From: Chloroflexota bacterium
Lineage (GTDB): Bacteria; Chloroflexota; Dehalococcoidia; Lucifugimonadales; UBA3495
Length of the DNA stretch: 64,000 nucleotides
Assembly (NCBI GenBank): GCA_028873965.1
Contig: JAPPMU010000052.1
Span: 1 to 64,000 of the forward strand
Reading direction: 5' to 3'
Positions within the stretch are counted from its first letter, which is position 1; each line of letters starts with the position of its first letter. Below the pieces are notes generated by a model. The model made no database searches and was not told where the DNA came from. It saw only the letters and a list, made by a program, of their open reading frames with translations. Both the position numbers and the translations under genes were made by a program. Positions 3,858 through 63,900 of the stretch are shown here, in pieces.

Positions 3858-4979
3858 ATGGGCTGGTCGATTCACCATCCAGTCGGACTGATCCATCACA
3901 CACCCGCAGCGTGCAATCGCGGCTACACGCTTTTTTCGACCACGCGCGGGGGCAAGGACGCTTACCTGATCGACATGCAGGGCAACGTCGTCCACCGGTG
4001 GCATTCTCCTGAGGGCATCCACTATTCCTACTTGCTGGACAACGGCAACCTGCTGTGCCGTACCTTACCGCCCGAGGACGCCGGCGGCATCGAGACGGTG
4101 GGCGGCTCGTCGGCCAGCATCATCGAACTGGACTGGGACAGCAACCTGGTCTGGGCCTACCGCAACAACACTCTTCACCATGATTACGAGCGGTTGCCCA
4201 ACGGCAATACCCTGTTGCTCATGTGGGATCCCATTCCGGAGGATCTGGTTGCGCAGGTACAGGGCGGATATGACGTGGATTTCGCTCCCGGGATGCTTGG
4301 CGACGTGGTTCGTGAGGTGACCCCAGACGGCGCGACCGTTTGGGAATGGAGGTCCTGGGAGCACCTGGATCCCAGCGAAGACGTTCTAGGTCCGCTGGAC
4401 GCCCGGCGGGAATGGACCCACGGGAATTGCCTGAACGTCACGCCCAACGGCGACCTGCTGGTGAGTTTCCGTTTGACCAACACCGTGGGCATCGTCGACC
4501 GCGCCACCGGAGCCTTCACCTGGAAGTGGGGCCCGGGCGAGATTGACCACCAGCATCATCCCACCTGGCTGGACAACGGACGGGTGCTGATCTTCGACAA
4601 CGGCTCCCACCGGCGGGGCGCCAGTTACTCCCGCGTCGTGGAAGTGGATCCGGCAACCAACGAGATCCATTGGCAGTACCAGGGAATGCCGGCCATCTCC
4701 TTCTACAGCTACAACATCAGCAGCGCGGAGCGGCAACCCAACGGAAACACGCTGATCTGCGAGGGGGCGCCGGGCCGCATGTTCGAGGTCACCCCTCGGG
4801 GCGAGATCGTCTGGGAGTACATCAACCCGTTCTTCCTCTATAGCGGCGCCGCCGGCGGTGGCGGCATGGAATACACCAACGCCACCTTCCGCTGCCACCG
4901 CTACAGCGCCGACCACCCGGCGCTCGTGGGGAAGGACCTGGACCCGAGGAGGCACGCGGCGCTGAATCGTATCCTATAA
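3858..4979 (+). CDS. Arylsulfotransferase (ASST) family protein
   Basis: Repeated beta-propeller motifs (GNVVHRWHSPEG, LPNGNTLLLMWD, GATVWEWRSWEHLDP, EWTHGNCLNVTPNGDLLVSFR, HHPTWLDNGRVLIFDNG). Confidence 0.8.
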   Translation: MGWSIHHPVGLIHHTPAACNRGYTLFSTTRGGKDAYLIDMQGNVVHRWHSPEGIHYSYLLDNGNLLCRTLPPEDAGGIETVGGSSASIIELDWDSNLVWAYRNNTLHHDYERLPNGNTLLLMWDPIPEDLVAQVQGGYDVDFAPGMLGDVVREVTPDGATVWEWRSWEHLDPSEDVLGPLDARREWTHGNCLNVTPNGDLLVSFRLTNTVGIVDRATGAFTWKWGPGEIDHQHHPTWLDNGRVLIFDNGSHRRGASYSRVVEVDPATNEIHWQYQGMPAISFYSYNISSAERQPNGNTLICEGAPGRMFEVTPRGEIVWEYINPFFLYSGAAGGGGMEYTNATFRCHRYSADHPALVGKDLDPRRHAALNRIL

Positions 4980-4997
4980 TGGTGTCATAAGGAGGAG

Positions 4998-6308
4998 ATG
5001 CATCTTCCTTTGTGCCAGGAACATAACCCGATGATCATCAATCGGATACAGGTGCTCAATTACGGATGCCTTCGGTACGTGGACGTGCCGATGGACCGCT
5101 TCCACGTGCTCATCGGCCCCAACGCCAGCGGCAAGAGCACGCTGATGGACGCAATCAAGTTCGTGTCCGACGTTGTGCGAGACGGGGTCAGTGCAGCGTG
5201 CGAGCGTCGCACCGCGAACTTTGCGGATTTGGTGTGGGGACGGCCGGAGGATCCCGAGGAGCAACGATTTGAAATCGCGCTGGAGTTCGAGCTACCTATT
5301 GAAGCACTCGAACTGTTGCCATCGCAACGCAATTACCGGACATTCCGGTACGAACTTTCAGTAGGGATCGATGTGCGAACAAGTCGGGTTTCCTTACTCA
5401 AAGAGAGGGGTGTGCTAAGGGTACAGACGGAGCAAAATCTCAAGCAATCGCTAATGTTCCCTGAACCTGATGTTCCTCCGCAGACTCTTACGGGCGCAAG
5501 GCCGAAAGGGCAACGGACGATATTTAGCAAAAGCGAAACTGGCCGGAGTAGATTCAATGACGAGACGATCAGGGAAACTGGTAGCGTCAACTGGAATTTG
5601 GGGCTAAATCTAAGTTCTGACCGCTCGGCTTTGTCGATTATGCCCGATCATGACGAAAAATACCCGGCTTCGACCCGGGCTATGGTATTTCTAAGGGATA
5701 AAGTGACCGTATTAGCGCTCAACAGTGAGCGGATGCGGCAAGCCAGTCGACCAGGTGTAGGCATTGACATGCTGCCTGACGGTTCGAACCTGCCGTGGGT
5801 CGCTGATGCGATGATCAGTCGTACGCCCGACCTGGCTGGTGAATGGATCGGTCATATCCAATGCGCTTTGTCGGGGCTCCACTCGGTAAAAATCATGGAC
5901 AGACCCGACGACCGCCACAAATACCTGATGCTGCAATATTCGCACGGGTTGGACGTGCCTTCATGGAAGGTCTCCGATGGTACTTTGCGCCTGATGGCCC
6001 TGACCATGCTCGCATATTCGCCTCAATCGTCTGGACTATACATGATTGAAGAGCCTGAAAATGGGATTCATCCAGGGGCGTTGCAAGACGTTTTCGATTC
6101 GTTGTCTTCAGTATACGAAGCGCAAGTCCTTTTGGCTAGTCATTCCCCAGAATTTGTGGCCATCGCGAATGTCCATCAGTTGCTGTGCTTCGGTAAAACT
6201 GATGCGGGTGTCGTCGATATCGTTCGTGGGAATTCGCATCCTCGCCTGAAAGATTGGCAATACGAGACCGATTTGGGGACCTTCTTCGCCTCGGGCATAC
6301 TCGCATGA
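4998..6308 (+). CDS. AAA (ABC/OLD-like) family ATPase, candidate defence ATPase
   Basis: Walker A LIGPNASGKSTLMDAIKF, Walker B LYMIEEPENGIHPGAL, D-loop/His switch VLLASHSPEFVAIA; alternative start at 5031 (MIINRIQVLNYG). Confidence 0.88.
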   Translation: MHLPLCQEHNPMIINRIQVLNYGCLRYVDVPMDRFHVLIGPNASGKSTLMDAIKFVSDVVRDGVSAACERRTANFADLVWGRPEDPEEQRFEIALEFELPIEALELLPSQRNYRTFRYELSVGIDVRTSRVSLLKERGVLRVQTEQNLKQSLMFPEPDVPPQTLTGARPKGQRTIFSKSETGRSRFNDETIRETGSVNWNLGLNLSSDRSALSIMPDHDEKYPASTRAMVFLRDKVTVLALNSERMRQASRPGVGIDMLPDGSNLPWVADAMISRTPDLAGEWIGHIQCALSGLHSVKIMDRPDDRHKYLMLQYSHGLDVPSWKVSDGTLRLMALTMLAYSPQSSGLYMIEEPENGIHPGALQDVFDSLSSVYEAQVLLASHSPEFVAIANVHQLLCFGKTDAGVVDIVRGNSHPRLKDWQYETDLGTFFASGILA

Positions 6309-6943
6309 ATGAAGCCTCTTTTTCGAAGGACCTCGTAGTGCTGGCTGCTGACGGAACAATTCAGCGCACCGTGCAGACCTTGTTGGAAGATCGGCAAGAT
6401 GCATTGGGCATATCTGCCCTGACCGTCGATATTCAAACCCATCGCCATCACGATTCGGGTTGCCGTTCTGCCCCCGGCGAAGTAATCAACCCGTTACGCA
6501 ACTTGTACCGGAAGGGGATGTTAATTTTCGATTTCCATGGCAGTGGAGAAACGCAACGTACTGCAGCGCAGTTGGAAGTTGATCTAGAGCAACAACTACA
6601 GAATGCAGGCTGGGGACATGACCGGATTGCAGTAGTGGCGATCGAGCCTGAGTTGGAAGCTTGGGTGTTTGGAGCCTCCGTTAGCGTTTTGGAAGGCCTT
6701 GTCGGTTGGTCTCAACCGCAAGGTATCAGCGACTGGTTAGAGCTAAATGGCTTTATCACTAGCGGGGAAACCAAGCCGAATGATCCACAGGCTGCTTTCG
6801 ATGGAATGCTTCAAATGCATCGGAAACGCCGCTCAAGAAAATTGTTCGCCGATCTCGCCCGCACCGTCAGTTTCTCCCGTTGCCAGGATCGCGCCTTCCA
6901 GAAATTCCGCGCCACGCTCCAACGTTGGTTCCCTGCCGAATGA
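6305..6943 (+). CDS. TOPRIM/DUF4276-like small partner protein of the AAA ATPase
   Basis: Start overlaps the upstream stop (ATGA, 6305-6308); acidic motifs VVLAADGTI, MLIFDFHGSGE, VAIEPELEAWVFG resemble TOPRIM/DUF4276/RloB-type proteins. Confidence 0.65.
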   Translation: MNEASFSKDLVVLAADGTIQRTVQTLLEDRQDALGISALTVDIQTHRHHDSGCRSAPGEVINPLRNLYRKGMLIFDFHGSGETQRTAAQLEVDLEQQLQNAGWGHDRIAVVAIEPELEAWVFGASVSVLEGLVGWSQPQGISDWLELNGFITSGETKPNDPQAAFDGMLQMHRKRRSRKLFADLARTVSFSRCQDRAFQKFRATLQRWFPAE

Positions 6944-6975
6944 AAAAGGCGGCGTCATCCGGACGCCGCCTTTTT
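6943..6975. terminator. Bidirectional intrinsic terminator
   Basis: AAAAAGGCGGCGT-CATCCGG-ACGCCGCCTTTTT perfect 13-bp stem between convergent genes. Confidence 0.9.
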
Positions 6976-7000
6976 GAACTCCATCCAATCTGAAATTCGT

Positions 7001-7690
7001 CTACGCCGGCCGCACCCGCATCTCCCGCAGGTCGTCGGCGATGATGAGCTGCGCCTCGGTCTGCTCCTGGATGTCCTCCGGGGACCAGCCGGGGGCATGC
7101 TCGCGCAGGACGAACCCGTCTTCGGTGATTTCGAACAGACCCAAGTCCGTAGCCAGCAGCTTGACCACTCCCGGCGCGGTGATGGGCAGATTGCATTGTT
7201 TGAGCACACGGGGCGCGCCGTTGCGCTGGTTGTGCTCCATGGCGATGAACACGCGCTTGGCGCAGGCGGCCAGGTCCATCGCGCCGCCGATCCCGCCGCC
7301 CTTGCGCACCGGAATGCGCCAGTTGGCGAAGTCTCCGTTTTCGGATACCTCGTACGCTCCCATCACCGTCACGTCCACCATGCCCTTCCTGATGATCCCG
7401 AACGAATCGGCGTGATGCACGATGGCCATGCCGGGCAGGGCAACCACGTTCTGGCCGCCGGCGTTGACCAGGTGCCTGTCTTCTTCCCCGGCAGGAGCCA
7501 GCGGACCAAATCCGATCACCCCGTTTTCGGAATGAAAGATGATCTCCTTGTCCGGCTCGCACTCCAGGTAGTTGGAGCAAAGAGTTGGCATACCCACGCC
7601 CAGGTTCACGATCCAACCGTCCTGGAACTCCATGGCAAGGCGGTCGCACATGGTTTGCCTGGAGAGGCGGGGCTTGTCCGCGGTAGTCAT
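7001..7690 (-). CDS. CoA-transferase subunit B (3-oxoacid CoA-transferase family)
   Basis: VNLGVGMPTL, FHSENGVIGFGP, GGIGGAMDLA; adjacent to subunit A. Confidence 0.88.
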   Translation of the reverse strand: MTTADKPRLSRQTMCDRLAMEFQDGWIVNLGVGMPTLCSNYLECEPDKEIIFHSENGVIGFGPLAPAGEEDRHLVNAGGQNVVALPGMAIVHHADSFGIIRKGMVDVTVMGAYEVSENGDFANWRIPVRKGGGIGGAMDLAACAKRVFIAMEHNQRNGAPRVLKQCNLPITAPGVVKLLATDLGLFEITEDGFVLREHAPGWSPEDIQEQTEAQLIIADDLREMRVRPA

Positions 7691-7757: not shown

Positions 7758-8456
7758 TCAGTCCCAAATCCCGTCTTCCGGGATCTTTACCAGTCGATCA
7801 ACGTAGATTCCCGGAACGTGCACGCAGTCCGGGTCAATCTCCCCAGGTTCAACGATGCTATCTTCCACCTCGACGACGGTGATATCGGCAGCCATGGCCA
7901 TCACGGGGTTGAAGTTGCGTTGGGTCAGGCGGAATTGCAGATTGCCGAAGGTGTCGGCCCGATACGCGCGAATGAGCGCAAAATCGGCCGGCAGGGGGTA
8001 TTCCAGCACGTAGGTGCGGCCGTTGATTTCCCGGTGCTCCTTGCCTTCCGCCAGCTCAGTGCCGACGCTGGCCGGCGTGTAGAAAGCGCCGATGCCAGCC
8101 GCGGCGGCCCGCATGCGTTCGGCCAGCGTCCCTTGCGGGACCAGTTCTGCATCCAGCTCATCGTCGTTGTACATCTGGACGAAGGGCGTGATCTGCGACG
8201 GGTGAGTCGGCGCGGTGAACGCGCAGATCATCTTCTTGACCTGGCGGGCTTCGATCAACGTACCGACGTCCACGCGGTCGTCCAGTGAACCCGCATTGTT
8301 GGAAATGCCGGTTAGGTCCTTGACCCCCAGCCGGTGCACTGCGGCCAGGAGGTTGCGGGCCAGGCCCACGTTGCCAAAACCGGGCGACATGAAAGTCATG
8401 CCGTCTTTCATGTCGGCAACGGCGGAGTCGAAATCGGGGAAAACCTTGTTCTTCAT
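7758..8456 (-). CDS. CoA-transferase subunit A (3-oxoacid CoA-transferase family)
   Basis: DGMTFMSPGFGNVGLARNLL, PQGTLAERMRAAAAGIGAFYTPASVGTELAEGKE. Confidence 0.88.
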   Translation of the reverse strand: MKNKVFPDFDSAVADMKDGMTFMSPGFGNVGLARNLLAAVHRLGVKDLTGISNNAGSLDDRVDVGTLIEARQVKKMICAFTAPTHPSQITPFVQMYNDDELDAELVPQGTLAERMRAAAAGIGAFYTPASVGTELAEGKEHREINGRTYVLEYPLPADFALIRAYRADTFGNLQFRLTQRNFNPVMAMAADITVVEVEDSIVEPGEIDPDCVHVPGIYVDRLVKIPEDGIWD

Positions 8457-16475: not shown

Positions 16476-18326
16476 CTATGGGGTAACGTCGAACTGCACC
16501 TCGGCGACCTTGCGGCCGTCCTCGTACACGTACGCCCAGTACCGCCCCGGCGCCCAGCGCAACGGGGCGGTTGGGCCTACCGACAGCCACTGAGTGCCGC
16601 CGGCAAACCGTGACTCGAACCGCACGGGCACTCGACGTCGGCTATTGGTGAAACCATCCTCAAAATACTCGACCACCTCGAATTGCAGTTGTTTGGGATC
16701 ACCGGAGATCGAGTAGGAGTATTTGAGCGTCAGGTACAGCCAACCTTCTACGTCCGACGCCGAAATCCTGTTGATCGGCTGACCCTCCACGCTCAACGCG
16801 ACGTATGCCTGGTCAACCCGTCCGTTGACTGTCGGCAGGGTTGGATCTACCGGGGCCGGATCGGGAACTCCTTCGACCACGGTGGATGCCCGACCCCGGT
16901 ACCATTGGTCCCAGATGTGTTCCAGATCCGGCTGCATCAGCATGCCTCCGGCCCGGAGCCATTCCACACGGATATCGCTCTCCGTGAAATCGCGCTGCGA
17001 CGGATAGGAGGGGTCTCCCGCCAGCCTGGCGTACAGCGCCCGCCAGGCCTGTAGGAACCGTTCCTCGCCCAATTGGCGGTACAGCGCCAGCAACAGCCGC
17101 TCGCCCAGGTAGTAGTTGCACCGCCACAAGCCGGGATCCTCCTGCGCCTCTTCCGGGTCGTCCGGTGACCGTAGTTCGAGTTCGCTGAGGGACGAGGCGC
17201 CGTCGCAGGGATAGTTGGTCGACTCCAGGGGAGCGCCTCCGGTGACGTGTCGTGCGTAAGTCGCGGCGAAATCCGCCCCGCCCTCGGAATGCCAGACGGG
17301 CTTCGCATACAGGTAATAGTGTGCGATCTCGTGAAAAACGGCGTGCGGGGCAAATTCCGGTTTGGAGTTGTCGTCGATCTCCGGCAACAACGTGACGTGC
17401 GTCTGGTAGTTGGTGCCGGCCGCCGCTCCCGCAACGTAGTCGGTGACGTGTATCACGATGGCCGGGGTCGGAAAGTCGGCGTCGAACATGCCCTCGAAAA
17501 CGGGCACCGCCGCCTGAGCCACCGCCATCACCGGCGAACCGGCCGGCGCGGGCCCGGAGCGTACTATCGCGATGGGAACAATCGACCCGCTCCGGCTGGT
17601 AGTGGCTCCCAGTTCCACGTTGAGGGTTCCGGGGTTGGCCACTATCGCATCGAATTCGGGCGACAGGAACCGGGAACGTTCGTAGAGTACCGCCACAATC
17701 GCGGCTTCGGCGGTGGTCAGTCCGTCGAGGAACCAGTCCGCGCTGGCGAGCTGCGCCAACCGATCCGGCCGGTCCTGCGCCATTCGTTGCAGCGACAATA
17801 ACGCGGGCAGATCCATTGGTCGCAGGCCGTCTTGGAATTCGTCCGATGCCAGCAATGCGCTCAAGACCTCTGGTGCGCTCAGCCCCACGTTGACCATGCG
17901 CTCGGCGGCGTTAAATTCGTCCGCGGTCTGCAAACCGTCGGCAATCCAGCTGATGCCGCTAATCTGCGCGATTACATCGGGATTGGCCTGTTCCGCGAAT
18001 CCCCAGTTGCGCGCCTCGGAGAGGCTGAACGCTGAAGGCTCCGGGGTCGCTGTGGGAGATTGGCGGGGTATCGCCGTGGCCGGAATCACCCGCGGCGACC
18101 GGGCGTTTGCCGGCCGCGCGGTGGGTGCAGCGGTGGCCGGCGGCTGAGTCGCAGTGGGTGCCGGCTCGGTTTCCTGGGAGGCGGCGACTCTCGCCAGGGC
18201 CGCGTCGATGGTCGCTTGCAGGTCAGCAGTGGGGGAATCGGTTGCCGGGCCGCTGCCAAAAAAGCAGCCGACGGAGGCAATCGCCCCCATCAAGCCAAGA
18301 ACCAACCAGGTCGGTGGGTAACGCAT
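16476..18326 (-). CDS. Secreted lipoprotein with gluzincin-type (peptidase MA-like) metalloprotease domain
   Basis: N-terminal TM/lipobox (ASVGC), low-complexity TP-rich linker, zinc motif HEIAHYY followed by WHSEGGADFAA. Confidence 0.7.
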   Translation of the reverse strand: MRYPPTWLVLGLMGAIASVGCFFGSGPATDSPTADLQATIDAALARVAASQETEPAPTATQPPATAAPTARPANARSPRVIPATAIPRQSPTATPEPSAFSLSEARNWGFAEQANPDVIAQISGISWIADGLQTADEFNAAERMVNVGLSAPEVLSALLASDEFQDGLRPMDLPALLSLQRMAQDRPDRLAQLASADWFLDGLTTAEAAIVAVLYERSRFLSPEFDAIVANPGTLNVELGATTSRSGSIVPIAIVRSGPAPAGSPVMAVAQAAVPVFEGMFDADFPTPAIVIHVTDYVAGAAAGTNYQTHVTLLPEIDDNSKPEFAPHAVFHEIAHYYLYAKPVWHSEGGADFAATYARHVTGGAPLESTNYPCDGASSLSELELRSPDDPEEAQEDPGLWRCNYYLGERLLLALYRQLGEERFLQAWRALYARLAGDPSYPSQRDFTESDIRVEWLRAGGMLMQPDLEHIWDQWYRGRASTVVEGVPDPAPVDPTLPTVNGRVDQAYVALSVEGQPINRISASDVEGWLYLTLKYSYSISGDPKQLQFEVVEYFEDGFTNSRRRVPVRFESRFAGGTQWLSVGPTAPLRWAPGRYWAYVYEDGRKVAEVQFDVTP

Positions 18327-18378: not shown

Positions 18379-18431
18379 CGCCGTCATTGGGTTCAAGACG
18401 TAACGAAAACTTCTCCAGGAGAGTTGCAGAC

Positions 18432-19184
18432 ATGGGCAAACTGGACGGCAGGGTAGCACTGATAACCGGCTCGGGCCGCAACATCGGCCGGGCCACGGCG
18501 TTGATGATGGCCGCGGAAGGAGCCAACATTGTAGTCAACGCGCGCAGCAACCGCGACGAGGCGGAGGCCACCGCGGCGGCCGTCGAGGAATTGGGCGTCA
18601 AGGCCCTGCCCGTCCTCGCCGACGTGTCCCAAAAGGACCAGGTTGACGCCATGATCGACGCCGCCATGTCAACCTTTGGGAGCATCGACATCCTGGTCAA
18701 CAACGCCGCCATCCGCCCGCACAAACCATTCACCGAAGTGACGGTGGAAGACTGGGAACACGTGCGCGGGGTGGTGCTGGACGGTTCCTTTTACACCACG
18801 CGCGGCGTTATCCAGCAGATGGTGGACAACAATTTCGGTCGCATCGTGTTCCTCACGGGGGATGGAGCCTTTCGGGGAAGCCCGCTGCGGGCTCACGTCT
18901 CGGCGGCCAAGATGGGCATAGTGGGCATGGCCCGCAGCCTCGCCTCCGAGTTCGCCGGCAACAACATTCGCGTCAACGTCGTGTCCCCGGGAAGCATCGA
19001 CACCAGCCGCGCCAACCCCGAATGGTACGCTGGCCGGGTTCCCGACGCTTCCGCCGTTCCCCTGGGGCGACAGGGTAAGCCCGACGAAATCGCGTCGACG
19101 GTCACCTTCCTCTGCACGGATGACGGCGGTTTCATCACCGGCCAGACTATCCACGTGAACGGCGGCCAGGGGTTCTTCGGCTGA
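18432..19184 (+). CDS. SDR-family oxidoreductase
   Basis: GRVALITGSGRNIGRATAL, NNAAIR, HVSAAKMGIVGMARSLA (atypical catalytic triad order), CTDDGGFITGQTIHVNGGQGFFG; start chosen after CCAGGAGAG. Confidence 0.88.
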   Translation: MGKLDGRVALITGSGRNIGRATALMMAAEGANIVVNARSNRDEAEATAAAVEELGVKALPVLADVSQKDQVDAMIDAAMSTFGSIDILVNNAAIRPHKPFTEVTVEDWEHVRGVVLDGSFYTTRGVIQQMVDNNFGRIVFLTGDGAFRGSPLRAHVSAAKMGIVGMARSLASEFAGNNIRVNVVSPGSIDTSRANPEWYAGRVPDASAVPLGRQGKPDEIASTVTFLCTDDGGFITGQTIHVNGGQGFFG

Positions 19185-60067: not shown

Positions 60068-60934
60068 TCAACTGTTCGGAGGCGCGCCCTCCGGCTCCGC
60101 CTGCCGGGTGTAGCTGTCGATGGCGCGCCGGGATGCGGCCTGGTAGATGCGCTGCAGGGCGGGAACGAATTCCTGCTCGCCCTGCCAGAAGGGGAACCGG
60201 CCCAGCTGCCGGGGCAGCGCCGCCGGGGCGTCGGGCGTCGTGAAAGCGCCGGTGAGATCGCATTCCGCCAGCCGATGCGCGGGATTGGCCCAGAAGTCGT
60301 CTGGGTCCGCCGGCAGGGGTTCCGGGGGAGCCGGCGGCCCGTCCAGGGTCTGGGCGGACTGGCGAAAGTCATCACCCAGCAGCTCCTCCCGCTCCATGCC
60401 CCGCAGCCGGAAGATCAAGAACGGGTCCCGGTCGAACTCCTCCCCCAGCAGCAGGTAGACTGCGGCGACGTGTTTGCATGGGTTGGACCAGTCGGGACAG
60501 GTGCAGTCGGTTTCGAGATCGTCCTCGCTGTCGGGAAACATGGACAGCCCCCGGACACGGAAGGCGTCCTCGATGTTGTCGGGCATCCGTCCCGATATCA
60601 GGCTGGCGGCGATGATGGGTTGCTGGGCGAACTCCTCCCGGAGCGCTTCCCAGTCGCCCGCGCTGATGGTGTCCACCTCGATGGTCACGCGGTAGGGAGT
60701 CTTGCGCGACCCCTGAACCAGCGCGTTCACCACGCCCTGCTCCACGTCTACGGAAAGGACCTGACCCCGCCGGGCGTAGGAGCGGCCCCGGCTGAGGCGG
60801 GCGCCGATGCGGAAGTTTTCAAGGGTCTGCAGCCACCTCTGGGCCCACCAGCTGGAGCCGAAGTCGCCGCGCCTGGACTGGGCCCGGATGCCTCCCCTGG
60901 CCCGGATGGTGGGTCGATAGTCGTAGTACACCAT
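60068..60934 (-). CDS. SWIM zinc-finger protein
   Basis: FGSSWWAQRWLQTLE, TDCTCPDWSNPCKHVAAVYLLLGEEFDRDPFLIFRLRG (CxCx-n-CxH). Confidence 0.9.
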   Translation of the reverse strand: MVYYDYRPTIRARGGIRAQSRRGDFGSSWWAQRWLQTLENFRIGARLSRGRSYARRGQVLSVDVEQGVVNALVQGSRKTPYRVTIEVDTISAGDWEALREEFAQQPIIAASLISGRMPDNIEDAFRVRGLSMFPDSEDDLETDCTCPDWSNPCKHVAAVYLLLGEEFDRDPFLIFRLRGMEREELLGDDFRQSAQTLDGPPAPPEPLPADPDDFWANPAHRLAECDLTGAFTTPDAPAALPRQLGRFPFWQGEQEFVPALQRIYQAASRRAIDSYTRQAEPEGAPPNS

Positions 60935-60966
60935 GGCGTTGAGTTTCCTTTGGGTTGGACGGGCGG

Positions 60967-63900
60967 TCAGTCGTCGGCGTGGTCCAGGCTGAGGGCCAGC
61001 ACCTCACGCAGCTCGGCATTGGACAATTCGGTGAGCCACCTCTCGGAGTTGCCGCCCACCACCCGCTCGGCGGTATCGCCCTTGGCCTCGATCATGGCGT
61101 CGATGTGGTCCTCCAGGGTGCCGGCGCAGATGAGCTTGTGGACGTGGACGTCTTTGGTCTGGCCGATGCGGAAGGCCCGGTCCGTGGCTTGGTTCTCCAC
61201 GGCCGGGTTCCACCAGCGGTCATAGTGGATCACGTGGTTGGCACGGGGCAGGTTTAGGCCGGAGCCGCCCGCCCGGAGGGAGAGAACGAACACCTGCGGC
61301 CCGTGGGGATCGTTTTGGAACCGCTCCACCATGCCGTCCCGCACGCGGCGCGACACGCCGCCGTGGAGAAAGGGCGTCTCGATGCCGAAGTTCTCCTGCA
61401 CGTACCGCTGGATGATGGCGCCCATCTCGGCGAACTGGCTGAACACCAGCGCGCGGTCTCCGTTGGGGATGATCTCGTCCAGCAGCTGGTGCAGACGTTC
61501 CATCTTGCCGGAGCGTCCGGCGATGGGGGAGTTGTCGGCCAGGAGCTGACGCGGATGGTTGCACGCCTGCTTCAGCTTGGTGAGGGTGTCCAGGATGGAC
61601 CCCCGGCGCTGGATGCCCTCCTGCTGCTCCATGCGGGCTTCCGCCTCTCGCAGCACTGCTTCGTAGAGGGTCACCTGCTCACGGGTCAGGCTGCAGTATT
61701 GCTTGGTCTCATGCTTGTCGGGCAGGTCGTCGATGATGGACCGGTCGGTCTTGACCCGGCGCAGGATGAACGGGCCGGTGGCCTTCTGGAGCCGGCTGGC
61801 GGCGGCCGCGTCGTGGTTGGCCTGGATGGGGACAAAGTAGTTGCGCTTGAACTGGGCCTGGGTGCCCAGCAAGCCGGGATTCAGAAACTCCATGATGGAC
61901 CACAGGTCGCCCACGTGGTTCTCCACCGGGGTTCCGGTAAGGGCAACGCGGTAGTCGGCGGGCAGGTTCCTGGCGGCCTGGGCCTGCCGGGATACCGGGT
62001 TCTTGATGTTCTGCGCTTCGTCCAGTATCACGGCGCGCCACGGCACGTCGCTGAGGAATTTGGCATCGCGCAGCATGGTTCCGTAGCTGGTGACGATGAT
62101 CTGGTGGTTCGAGGCTGTCTTGTGGAAGCGGACGCCGCGTTTTCGCCCTGGGCCGTGGTGGAGCATCACGTTGAGGTCGGGGGTGAACTTCGCTGATTCC
62201 CGCTGCCAGTTGTACATCAGCGAGGTGGGGCACACCAGCAGGTTGGGCCGTTCGTTGCCCTCCTCCTCGTCAAGCTGCAGGGCCGCCAGGGTCTGGATGG
62301 TTTTGCCCAAGCCCATGTCGTCCGCCAGGCAGGCGCCCAGGCCCCACTGGCGCAGGAAGGTCAGCCAGGCGTAGCCCGCCTCCTGATAGGGACGCAGCGA
62401 GCCTTGGAACGATGCGGGAGCGTCCGGCCTTTCGATCTGCGTCTTCCCGTCCAGCTGTTCCATCAGCCGGGCGATCCAATCGTCGGTCTGCAGGGAGACG
62501 TTGTCGTCCGCCGCCCGGTCGTCGGCGTCGAGGCTGATATGGATAGCGTCCCGGACGCTGACCTGCTGCTTGTTGCTCCAGAAGTCGGCGGCCTCGCGGA
62601 TTTCGTCGGCGTTGATTTCCACCCACTGCCCCCGCAGACGCACCAGGGGCGTCTTCAGCTCCGCCAGCTCTGCCAGTTCTTCGGGTGTTATCGTCTGGTC
62701 GCCCAGCGCGACCATCACGTCCAGGTCCAGCATGGTGGACAGGCTGATGTGGCCGCCCCCCTGCATGGACGGTGTTTTGACCCTGGCGCGGATGGCGGGC
62801 CGGGTTCTGGAGCCGCGACGGGTCCACCACGCGGGGAGCAGTACCCCGAAACCGGCCTGCTGCAGGGCCGGAGCCTCGGCGTTCAGGAATTGGTGGGCCC
62901 CCGCTGTGGGCAGCTTCTGGCCGGCGGGCCGCTTGCCGTGCAGGCTCGCGGCGATGGGCGGACACAGGTTGGCAGCCTGGGCCAGGGACGACAGCAGGAA
63001 CTCCCTGGGGCTGAAATCGGGGTTGCGGGCGTCCCTGCGCCGGCGCTTCCAGACGGTTTCGGCGGGCAGCAGCAGGCTGTGGTCGTCGTGGGGCTGGAGC
63101 AGGTAGCGGAGATACCAGTCGCCCTGGCCGATGGCCGGAGCCTCGTCATCCGCCGGTTCCGGCGGCTCCTCCAGCCGGATGCAGAGACGATAGGGCGCGT
63201 TGGCAGCGGCAGCGATGGGACGATGCCACTCCGACACCTGCTGGCGCAACTGTTGCAGCTGAACCAGAGGCGCGTCGATGATCCCATCGGCGGAGCTGAG
63301 GGAGTGGAGCCAGGCGTCGTGAGCCGAATCGACCCCGCCGTTCGCGGCATCGGGACCCAGGGCGCCTCGGACCAGGTGATCCACCGTGACGTCGAGGAAG
63401 GCTCTCAGTACGGTCGATGCGGCCGGCGTGGGAGGTTGCGGGGCCGCGGCGTTGGTTACCGAGCGGGCCGACGGTGGCATCAGACTGGCCAGTTGGGCCA
63501 GCCGGTGAGCGTCATCTCCGATGAACAGCGGCTTCCATGTCGCAATGACCCTATCGCCGCGTCCGGTCACAGTGGGCAGGTACTGCTGCCGCGTCGCCAG
63601 CGAGAGGCCGAACCGGTAGGCCCGATACCAGTAGGCGACCTCCGGCCCCAGGATAACACCGGGTTTCAGCACGGGCCGGTCCTGGCAGCTCTGCAGGAAC
63701 TCGGCGGCTGCTCCGGCGTCCAGCCGAATTGCGGACACCCGCCAAGGCCGGATGCGGGGCTTGGCCCGGGACTTGGGGGCGTCGCCGGCCAGCGGGCTTG
63801 ACGGCAGGGGAGTGTTTCCCTTGCTGGGCAGCCAAACGGTTGCCTCGCCGGCCATGATGTCGTAGTCAGGCAGATCGATGGCCTCAAGCAGCAGGTCGAT

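Follow-up and report, generated by a model that had tools for sequence, protein, structure and literature searches.

Free-standing homologues of the MADS proteins MAD3 and MAD4 at a variable slot in a Chloroflexota genus

In the defence system PARIS, the ABC ATPase AriA keeps the TOPRIM nuclease AriB sequestered until a phage protein triggers its release, upon which AriB cleaves tRNA (PMC11455837; PMC12409363). Modules combining an OLD-type ABC ATPase with a TOPRIM protein are also nested in BREX-related systems, Hma among them, where they have been proposed to act as backup suicidal effectors (PMC12839542); candidates embedded in Hma carry the label HEC, for Hma-embedded candidate (PMC12988326). 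For the OLD nuclease of Burkholderia pseudomallei (BpOLD), the catalytic residues are E400, E404, D455, D457, T506, E508 and K562 (PMC6755086). Here we describe a gene pair within a 64,000-nucleotide stretch of a Chloroflexota genome (the window). Its components are already known as MAD3 and MAD4 from the eight-gene system MADS, and the pair represents a variant that stands on its own.

The gene pair and the assignment of its proteins

The two genes and their surroundings are laid out as follows:

3858..4979, + strand: arylsulfotransferase-like gene, left flank; a neighbour conserved in most genus members (name from sequence reading)
4980..7000, no strand: exchange slot, holding MAD3–MAD4, an AAA_15 + DUF3226 pair or neither, depending on the genus member
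5031..6308, + strand: mad3 homologue, ABC/OLD-type ATPase (AAA_21/AAA_15), 425 aa; alternative start at 4998
6305..6943, + strand: mad4 homologue, TOPRIM-like putative nuclease effector, 212 aa
6942..6976, no strand: bidirectional terminator-like hairpin, AAAAAGGCGGCGTC-ATCCG-GACGCCGCCTTTTT, separating mad4 from the convergent CoA-transferase gene
7001..7690, − strand: CoA-transferase subunit B, right flank; 95–99% identical genus-wide (name from sequence reading)
7758..8456, − strand: CoA-transferase subunit A, right flank (name from sequence reading)

The open reading frames overlap by ATGA, as the sequence-only reading of this DNA had described. That reading began the module at 4998, where the Shine–Dalgarno-like sequence is better (AAGGAGG); the pair stands, but 5031 is the likelier start of mad3 because homologues begin at an MII/MIT motif. 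The 2-kb slot has 53.2% GC versus 63.3% for the whole window, a value lower than in all 621 comparable windows, and GC3 is 0.54–0.60 in mad3 and mad4 versus 0.78–0.84 in the flanking genes. This bears out the earlier remark that the second half of the module (about 5.3–6.9 kb) is less GC-rich, the initial 270 nt of mad3 being nearer the background at 59% GC. The hairpin previously taken for a bidirectional terminator closing the module has 14 pairs with A/T runs on either side and folds strongly on both strands (−25.2 and −25.9 kcal/mol; z of −5.2 and −4.8, with no shuffle equally good). A scan for promoters and terminators gave nothing above shuffles, its rule missing hairpins with the T run inside the stem. 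At the far end of the window (60068–63855), a SWIM zinc-finger-like protein adjoins, by eye, a SNF2-helicase-like protein.

The first protein passes the NCBIfam MAD3 model narrowly (NF047739, 423.9 bits against a cut-off of 420) and the second passes the MAD4 model (NF047734, 177.8 bits against 160), which all 20 MAD4 proteins in our alignment (A3) likewise match. In Pfam the ATPase belongs to AAA_21 (6e-32), also matching AAA_15, and its best PADLOC match is HEC-01A (PDLC04182, 5e-43). For MAD4, the sole Pfam match is DUF4276 at 0.086, below the cut-off, and PADLOC gives weak matches to HEC-01B (PDLC04209, 1.3e-3) and to mad4. Two earlier claims give way to these matches: the partner, said to lack a named effector match, is MAD4, and the supposedly undescribed defence system consists of MAD3 and MAD4 of MADS, related to the Hma-embedded candidate HEC-01. 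The ABC/OLD-type ATPase motifs that had been called complete in the first frame (Walker A GPNASGKST, signature-like SDGTLRL, Walker B MIEEPENGIHP and H-switch ASHSP) are invariant or nearly so across 18 homologues.

An AlphaFold model of MAD4 (pLDDT 92.5, pTM 0.88) has a single PDB match at probability 1.00 in Foldseek: 6nk8, the TOPRIM-containing C-terminal region of BpOLD, at remote similarity (E 1.6e-3, TM 0.48/0.51). With the AAA_21 match of its neighbour, this agrees with the proposal of a two-gene ATPase and TOPRIM-like module. The partner's acidic motifs, thought reminiscent of TOPRIM, are conserved as well: among the 20 aligned proteins, D16 is kept in 18, D76 and E116 in all and E118 in 19, while position 78 is D, E or H in 19, position 20 is E in 11, Q in 3 and K in 3, and K157 is kept throughout. 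The order of acidic and lysine residues matches that of OLD TOPRIM domains, a correspondence by order and topology, not by residue-level superposition. The Asp in place of the first Glu (18 of 20) is a genuine deviation from the usual TOPRIM pattern and, because of it and of the D/E/H at the second Asp of the DxD motif, catalysis by MAD4 is not assured. As modelled, MAD4 appears to have an OLD-TOPRIM-like fold with a metal-site-like constellation, in which D16, E/Q20, D76-x-(D/E/H)78, E116/E118 and K157 are the candidate catalytic residues. A fold and candidate residues are thereby assigned to a protein whose family model has no functional description.

The slot and its contents among relatives

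The gene order arylsulfotransferase-like gene, slot, CoA-transferase B and CoA-transferase A is conserved in most members of the genus, and some have extra SDR and lipoprotein-like genes at the slot. In the window, an SDR gene (18387–19184) lies about 12 kb from the slot and adjoins a lipoprotein-like gene (16476–18326); in several congeners an SDR gene is at or near the slot. Among 14 genomes, the slot holds MAD3–MAD4 in four (G000, the window's genome, and G002, G006 and G008), an AAA_15/21 ATPase with a DUF3226 protein in seven (G001, G003, G005, G007, G010, G012 and G013) and neither pair in three. Two more genera of the family have the same slot, occupied by MAD3–MAD4 in G022 and by the DUF3226 pair in G025, whose own MAD3–MAD4 is located away from it; across 60 relatives, 13 of the 23 copies of both modules are in this one place. 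Since single-contig chromosomes (G003, G006 and G010) show both slot states, assembly artefacts do not explain the variation.

The alternative pair matches PADLOC's PDC-M38. The model of its DUF3226 protein is an OLD TOPRIM domain (6njw, probability 1.00) with canonical residues (E22, D79-A-D81, E136 and K171), and profile–profile comparison detected no sequence similarity between this protein and MAD4. The two pairs have opposite orientations: MAD3–MAD4 converges on the CoA-transferase genes, whereas the DUF3226 pair lies head to tail downstream of them with a gap of about 15–20 nt. The ATPase alleles compared for this pair are about 40–62% identical between congeners in which CoA-transferase B is about 95–99% identical to that of the window (L049, L051, L055, L056, L047, L048 and L053). 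The idea that in three genomes the DUF3226 pair had decayed to a remnant without an intact ATPase does not hold, as tblastn shows these ATPases to be intact.

In a DNA tree of the CoA-transferase genes, G006, which has MAD3–MAD4, groups as sister to G003, which has the DUF3226 pair (100/99). G000 belongs to a 100/100 clade in which all four other members have the DUF3226 pair. On this tree the slot contents are scattered like shuffled labels, and its well-supported branches force at least three changes of the MAD3–MAD4 label. The CoA-transferase proteins of the four MAD3–MAD4 congeners are 93–98% identical (pS 0.36–0.65), and their MAD3 and MAD4 proteins 64–71% and 50–55% identical at near-saturated synonymous divergence (pS 0.69–0.85). 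Over all comparisons, pS is 0.36–0.67 in the CoA-transferase flanks and 0.68–0.85 in the pair, the arylsulfotransferase of G022 being left out of the divergence figures. From the phylogeny of the flanks and the near-saturated synonymous divergence, we infer repeated exchange at the slot. The five slot alleles of MAD3–MAD4, from two genera, form one deep clade (100/100) in a tree read without the placement of the L075 MAD3, and dN/dS is about 0.1–0.25 for the pair where estimable. The pattern fits an old allele family exchanged among relatives, presumably by recombination in the flanks.

A genome scan found 20 MAD4 loci in about ten phylum-level groups, with a MAD3 frame directly upstream in every one. 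These loci were drawn with one conserved sequence pattern, some of them from short contigs, which makes proportions rough. The horizontal acquisition suggested earlier is in keeping with this spread, with the scatter on the flank tree and with the pS values, which together mark the module as mobile. In the scan, the pairs are usually free-standing and once nested in Hma. Homologues embedded in housekeeping operons across the phylum had been named as a sign against defence; among the loci examined, the neighbours are unrelated and mostly metabolic (BshC, QueA, cytidylate kinase and acyl-CoA dehydrogenase, among others), and the module does not belong to any conserved housekeeping operon. Most free-standing copies examined sit among ordinary genes, not defence islands, and the pairs L074 and L075 have an nSTAND-like and a Schlafen-like neighbour, respectively. 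In L074, from Pirellulaceae, a stop interrupts the MAD4 reading frame (L074:10001–10606). Within the phylum, MAD4 is over cut-off in 5 of 399 genomes; it was found in one plasmid record and was absent from the phage records searched.

Relation to MADS and Hma

A plasmid of Piscinibacter gummiphilus (L104:10408–27474) carries a complete mad1–mad8 operon, annotated there generically, in which all eight proteins are over the NCBIfam cut-offs and mad3–mad4 lie between the methylase gene mad2 and the S-subunit gene mad5. This record was the positive control for a genome-wide MADS search with the NCBIfam models, which were used because the PADLOC models for mad2, mad3 and mad5 match most control genomes and are uninformative genome-wide. 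With the control passed, not one of the 21 pair-carrying genomes searched, among them that of the window and several incomplete drafts, had MAD2 or MAD7 over cut-off; weaker MAD2-like methylases do occur. In the window's genome, MAD7 has no match at E 1e-10 (657.5 bits in the control plasmid), and the best MAD2 match, on contig C65, reaches 563.7 bits against a cut-off of 720. The C65 locus (L109:3661–6370) is restriction-modification-like, with an S-subunit-like gene and an N6-adenine methylase that by eye has an apparent N-terminal nuclease-like domain. No mad1, mad2 or mad5–mad8 adjoins the window pair, whose neighbours are other genes. As the eight-gene operon is missing and mad2 and mad7 are below cut-off genome-wide, the locus is not a MADS system. 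HmaC was not found in the window's genome; in a Verrucomicrobia draft (L068:1309–13950), an Hma system has a MAD3–MAD4 pair nested between its HmaB and HmaC.

Proposed function and comparison with known systems

We favor, with a probability of roughly 0.6, the reading that MAD3–MAD4 is a free-standing module working like PARIS and OLD-type systems, in which the MAD3 ATPase would restrain and sense and the MAD4 TOPRIM nuclease would be the effector. By this analogy, MAD3, an OLD-family ABC ATPase, would bind and restrain MAD4 and sense infection, and a trigger would cause MAD3 to release or activate MAD4. MAD4 would then act as a two-metal TOPRIM-fold nuclease on host tRNA, other RNA or DNA, and the cleavage would halt infection, probably at a cost to the cell. 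We infer the nuclease activity, the inhibition by MAD3, the trigger, the substrate and the antiphage effect, with MAD3 as the probable sensor that holds back MAD4, the probable effector. That the slot is shared with a different pair of the same design suggests a self-contained, swappable defence module. We put at about even odds a wider proposition in two parts. In it, MAD3–MAD4 would be an independent two-gene immune system, mostly free-standing, which MADS and Hma took up as a cassette, and the family's CoA-transferase slot would be a site of allelic exchange at which two unrelated modules of OLD-type ATPase and TOPRIM protein substitute for one another through recombination across the conserved flanking genes.

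Instead, the pair could serve a restriction-modification system encoded at another genomic locus, in an auxiliary or guarding role like the one it would have inside MADS and Hma. The nesting itself, the two-gene methylase and S-subunit-like locus on C65 and the backup-effector role proposed for OLD-ABC and TOPRIM proteins in BREX-related systems (PMC12839542) all speak for such a role, which we nevertheless consider unlikely: there is no physical linkage in the window's genome, and the MAD2 model is without a match at E 1e-20 in G002, G022 and the majority of the other genomes whose pair is free-standing. A function outside defence, such as DNA repair, chromosome maintenance or selfish toxin–antitoxin persistence at a neutral insertion site, is improbable. 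It would sit well with the metabolic flanks and with the many homologues among ordinary genes, and some OLD ATPases have cellular roles, one from an archaeon being reported to function in the cell cycle (PMC12796447), but presence is patchy, divergence is much deeper than in the flanks, and the pair alternates with a different ATPase and TOPRIM pair and is nested in two defence systems. Most improbable is a non-functional leftover of a former complete MADS, for although both proteins pass the MADS equivalog cut-offs and the pair sits between mad2 and mad5 in the complete operon, the frames are intact with conserved motifs, the five slot alleles have stayed intact in two genera as a deep clade, at dN/dS of about 0.1–0.25 where estimable, most homologues in other phyla are likewise free-standing, and the 21-genome search put neither mad2 nor mad7 over its cut-off.

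If the free-standing defence module is real, two of the eight MADS subunits form a self-contained unit and MADS and Hma become directly dissectable; the slot offers a naturally replicated site where two analogous modules alternate. The components are known. In the literature and libraries searched, no joint description turned up of the exchange slot, the TOPRIM assignment with its altered first residue and the pair's free-standing state, and the primary description of MADS may already mention free-standing pairs.

Among described systems, the pair shares with MADS the equivalog matches and the gene order and overlap of the Piscinibacter mad3–mad4, but its proteins are 33% (MAD3) and 28% (MAD4) identical to those of that operon and the other mad genes are not adjoining. 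The window ATPase is of the HEC-01A type (5e-43), and the homologous L068 pair lies inside Hma, whereas the match to HEC-01B is weak (1.3e-3 for the window partner and 4.8e-8 for that of L068) and the window pair has no Hma around it. Like PARIS, it has two genes, encoding an OLD-type ABC ATPase and a separate TOPRIM protein, although MAD4 has no DUF4435/AriB match in Pfam or PADLOC. With OLD nucleases and GajA of Gabija, it has in common the ATPase family, the TOPRIM-like fold and the order of the catalytic constellation; it differs in encoding ATPase and TOPRIM as separate frames and in the change of the first Glu to Asp, and downstream, where Gabija has the UvrD-like helicase GajB, lies a CoA-transferase gene. 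PDC-M38, the ATPase and DUF3226 pair, has a partner without detectable sequence relation to MAD4 and the opposite orientation to the CoA-transferase genes, but shares with MAD3–MAD4 the slot, the general architecture and the OLD-TOPRIM fold.
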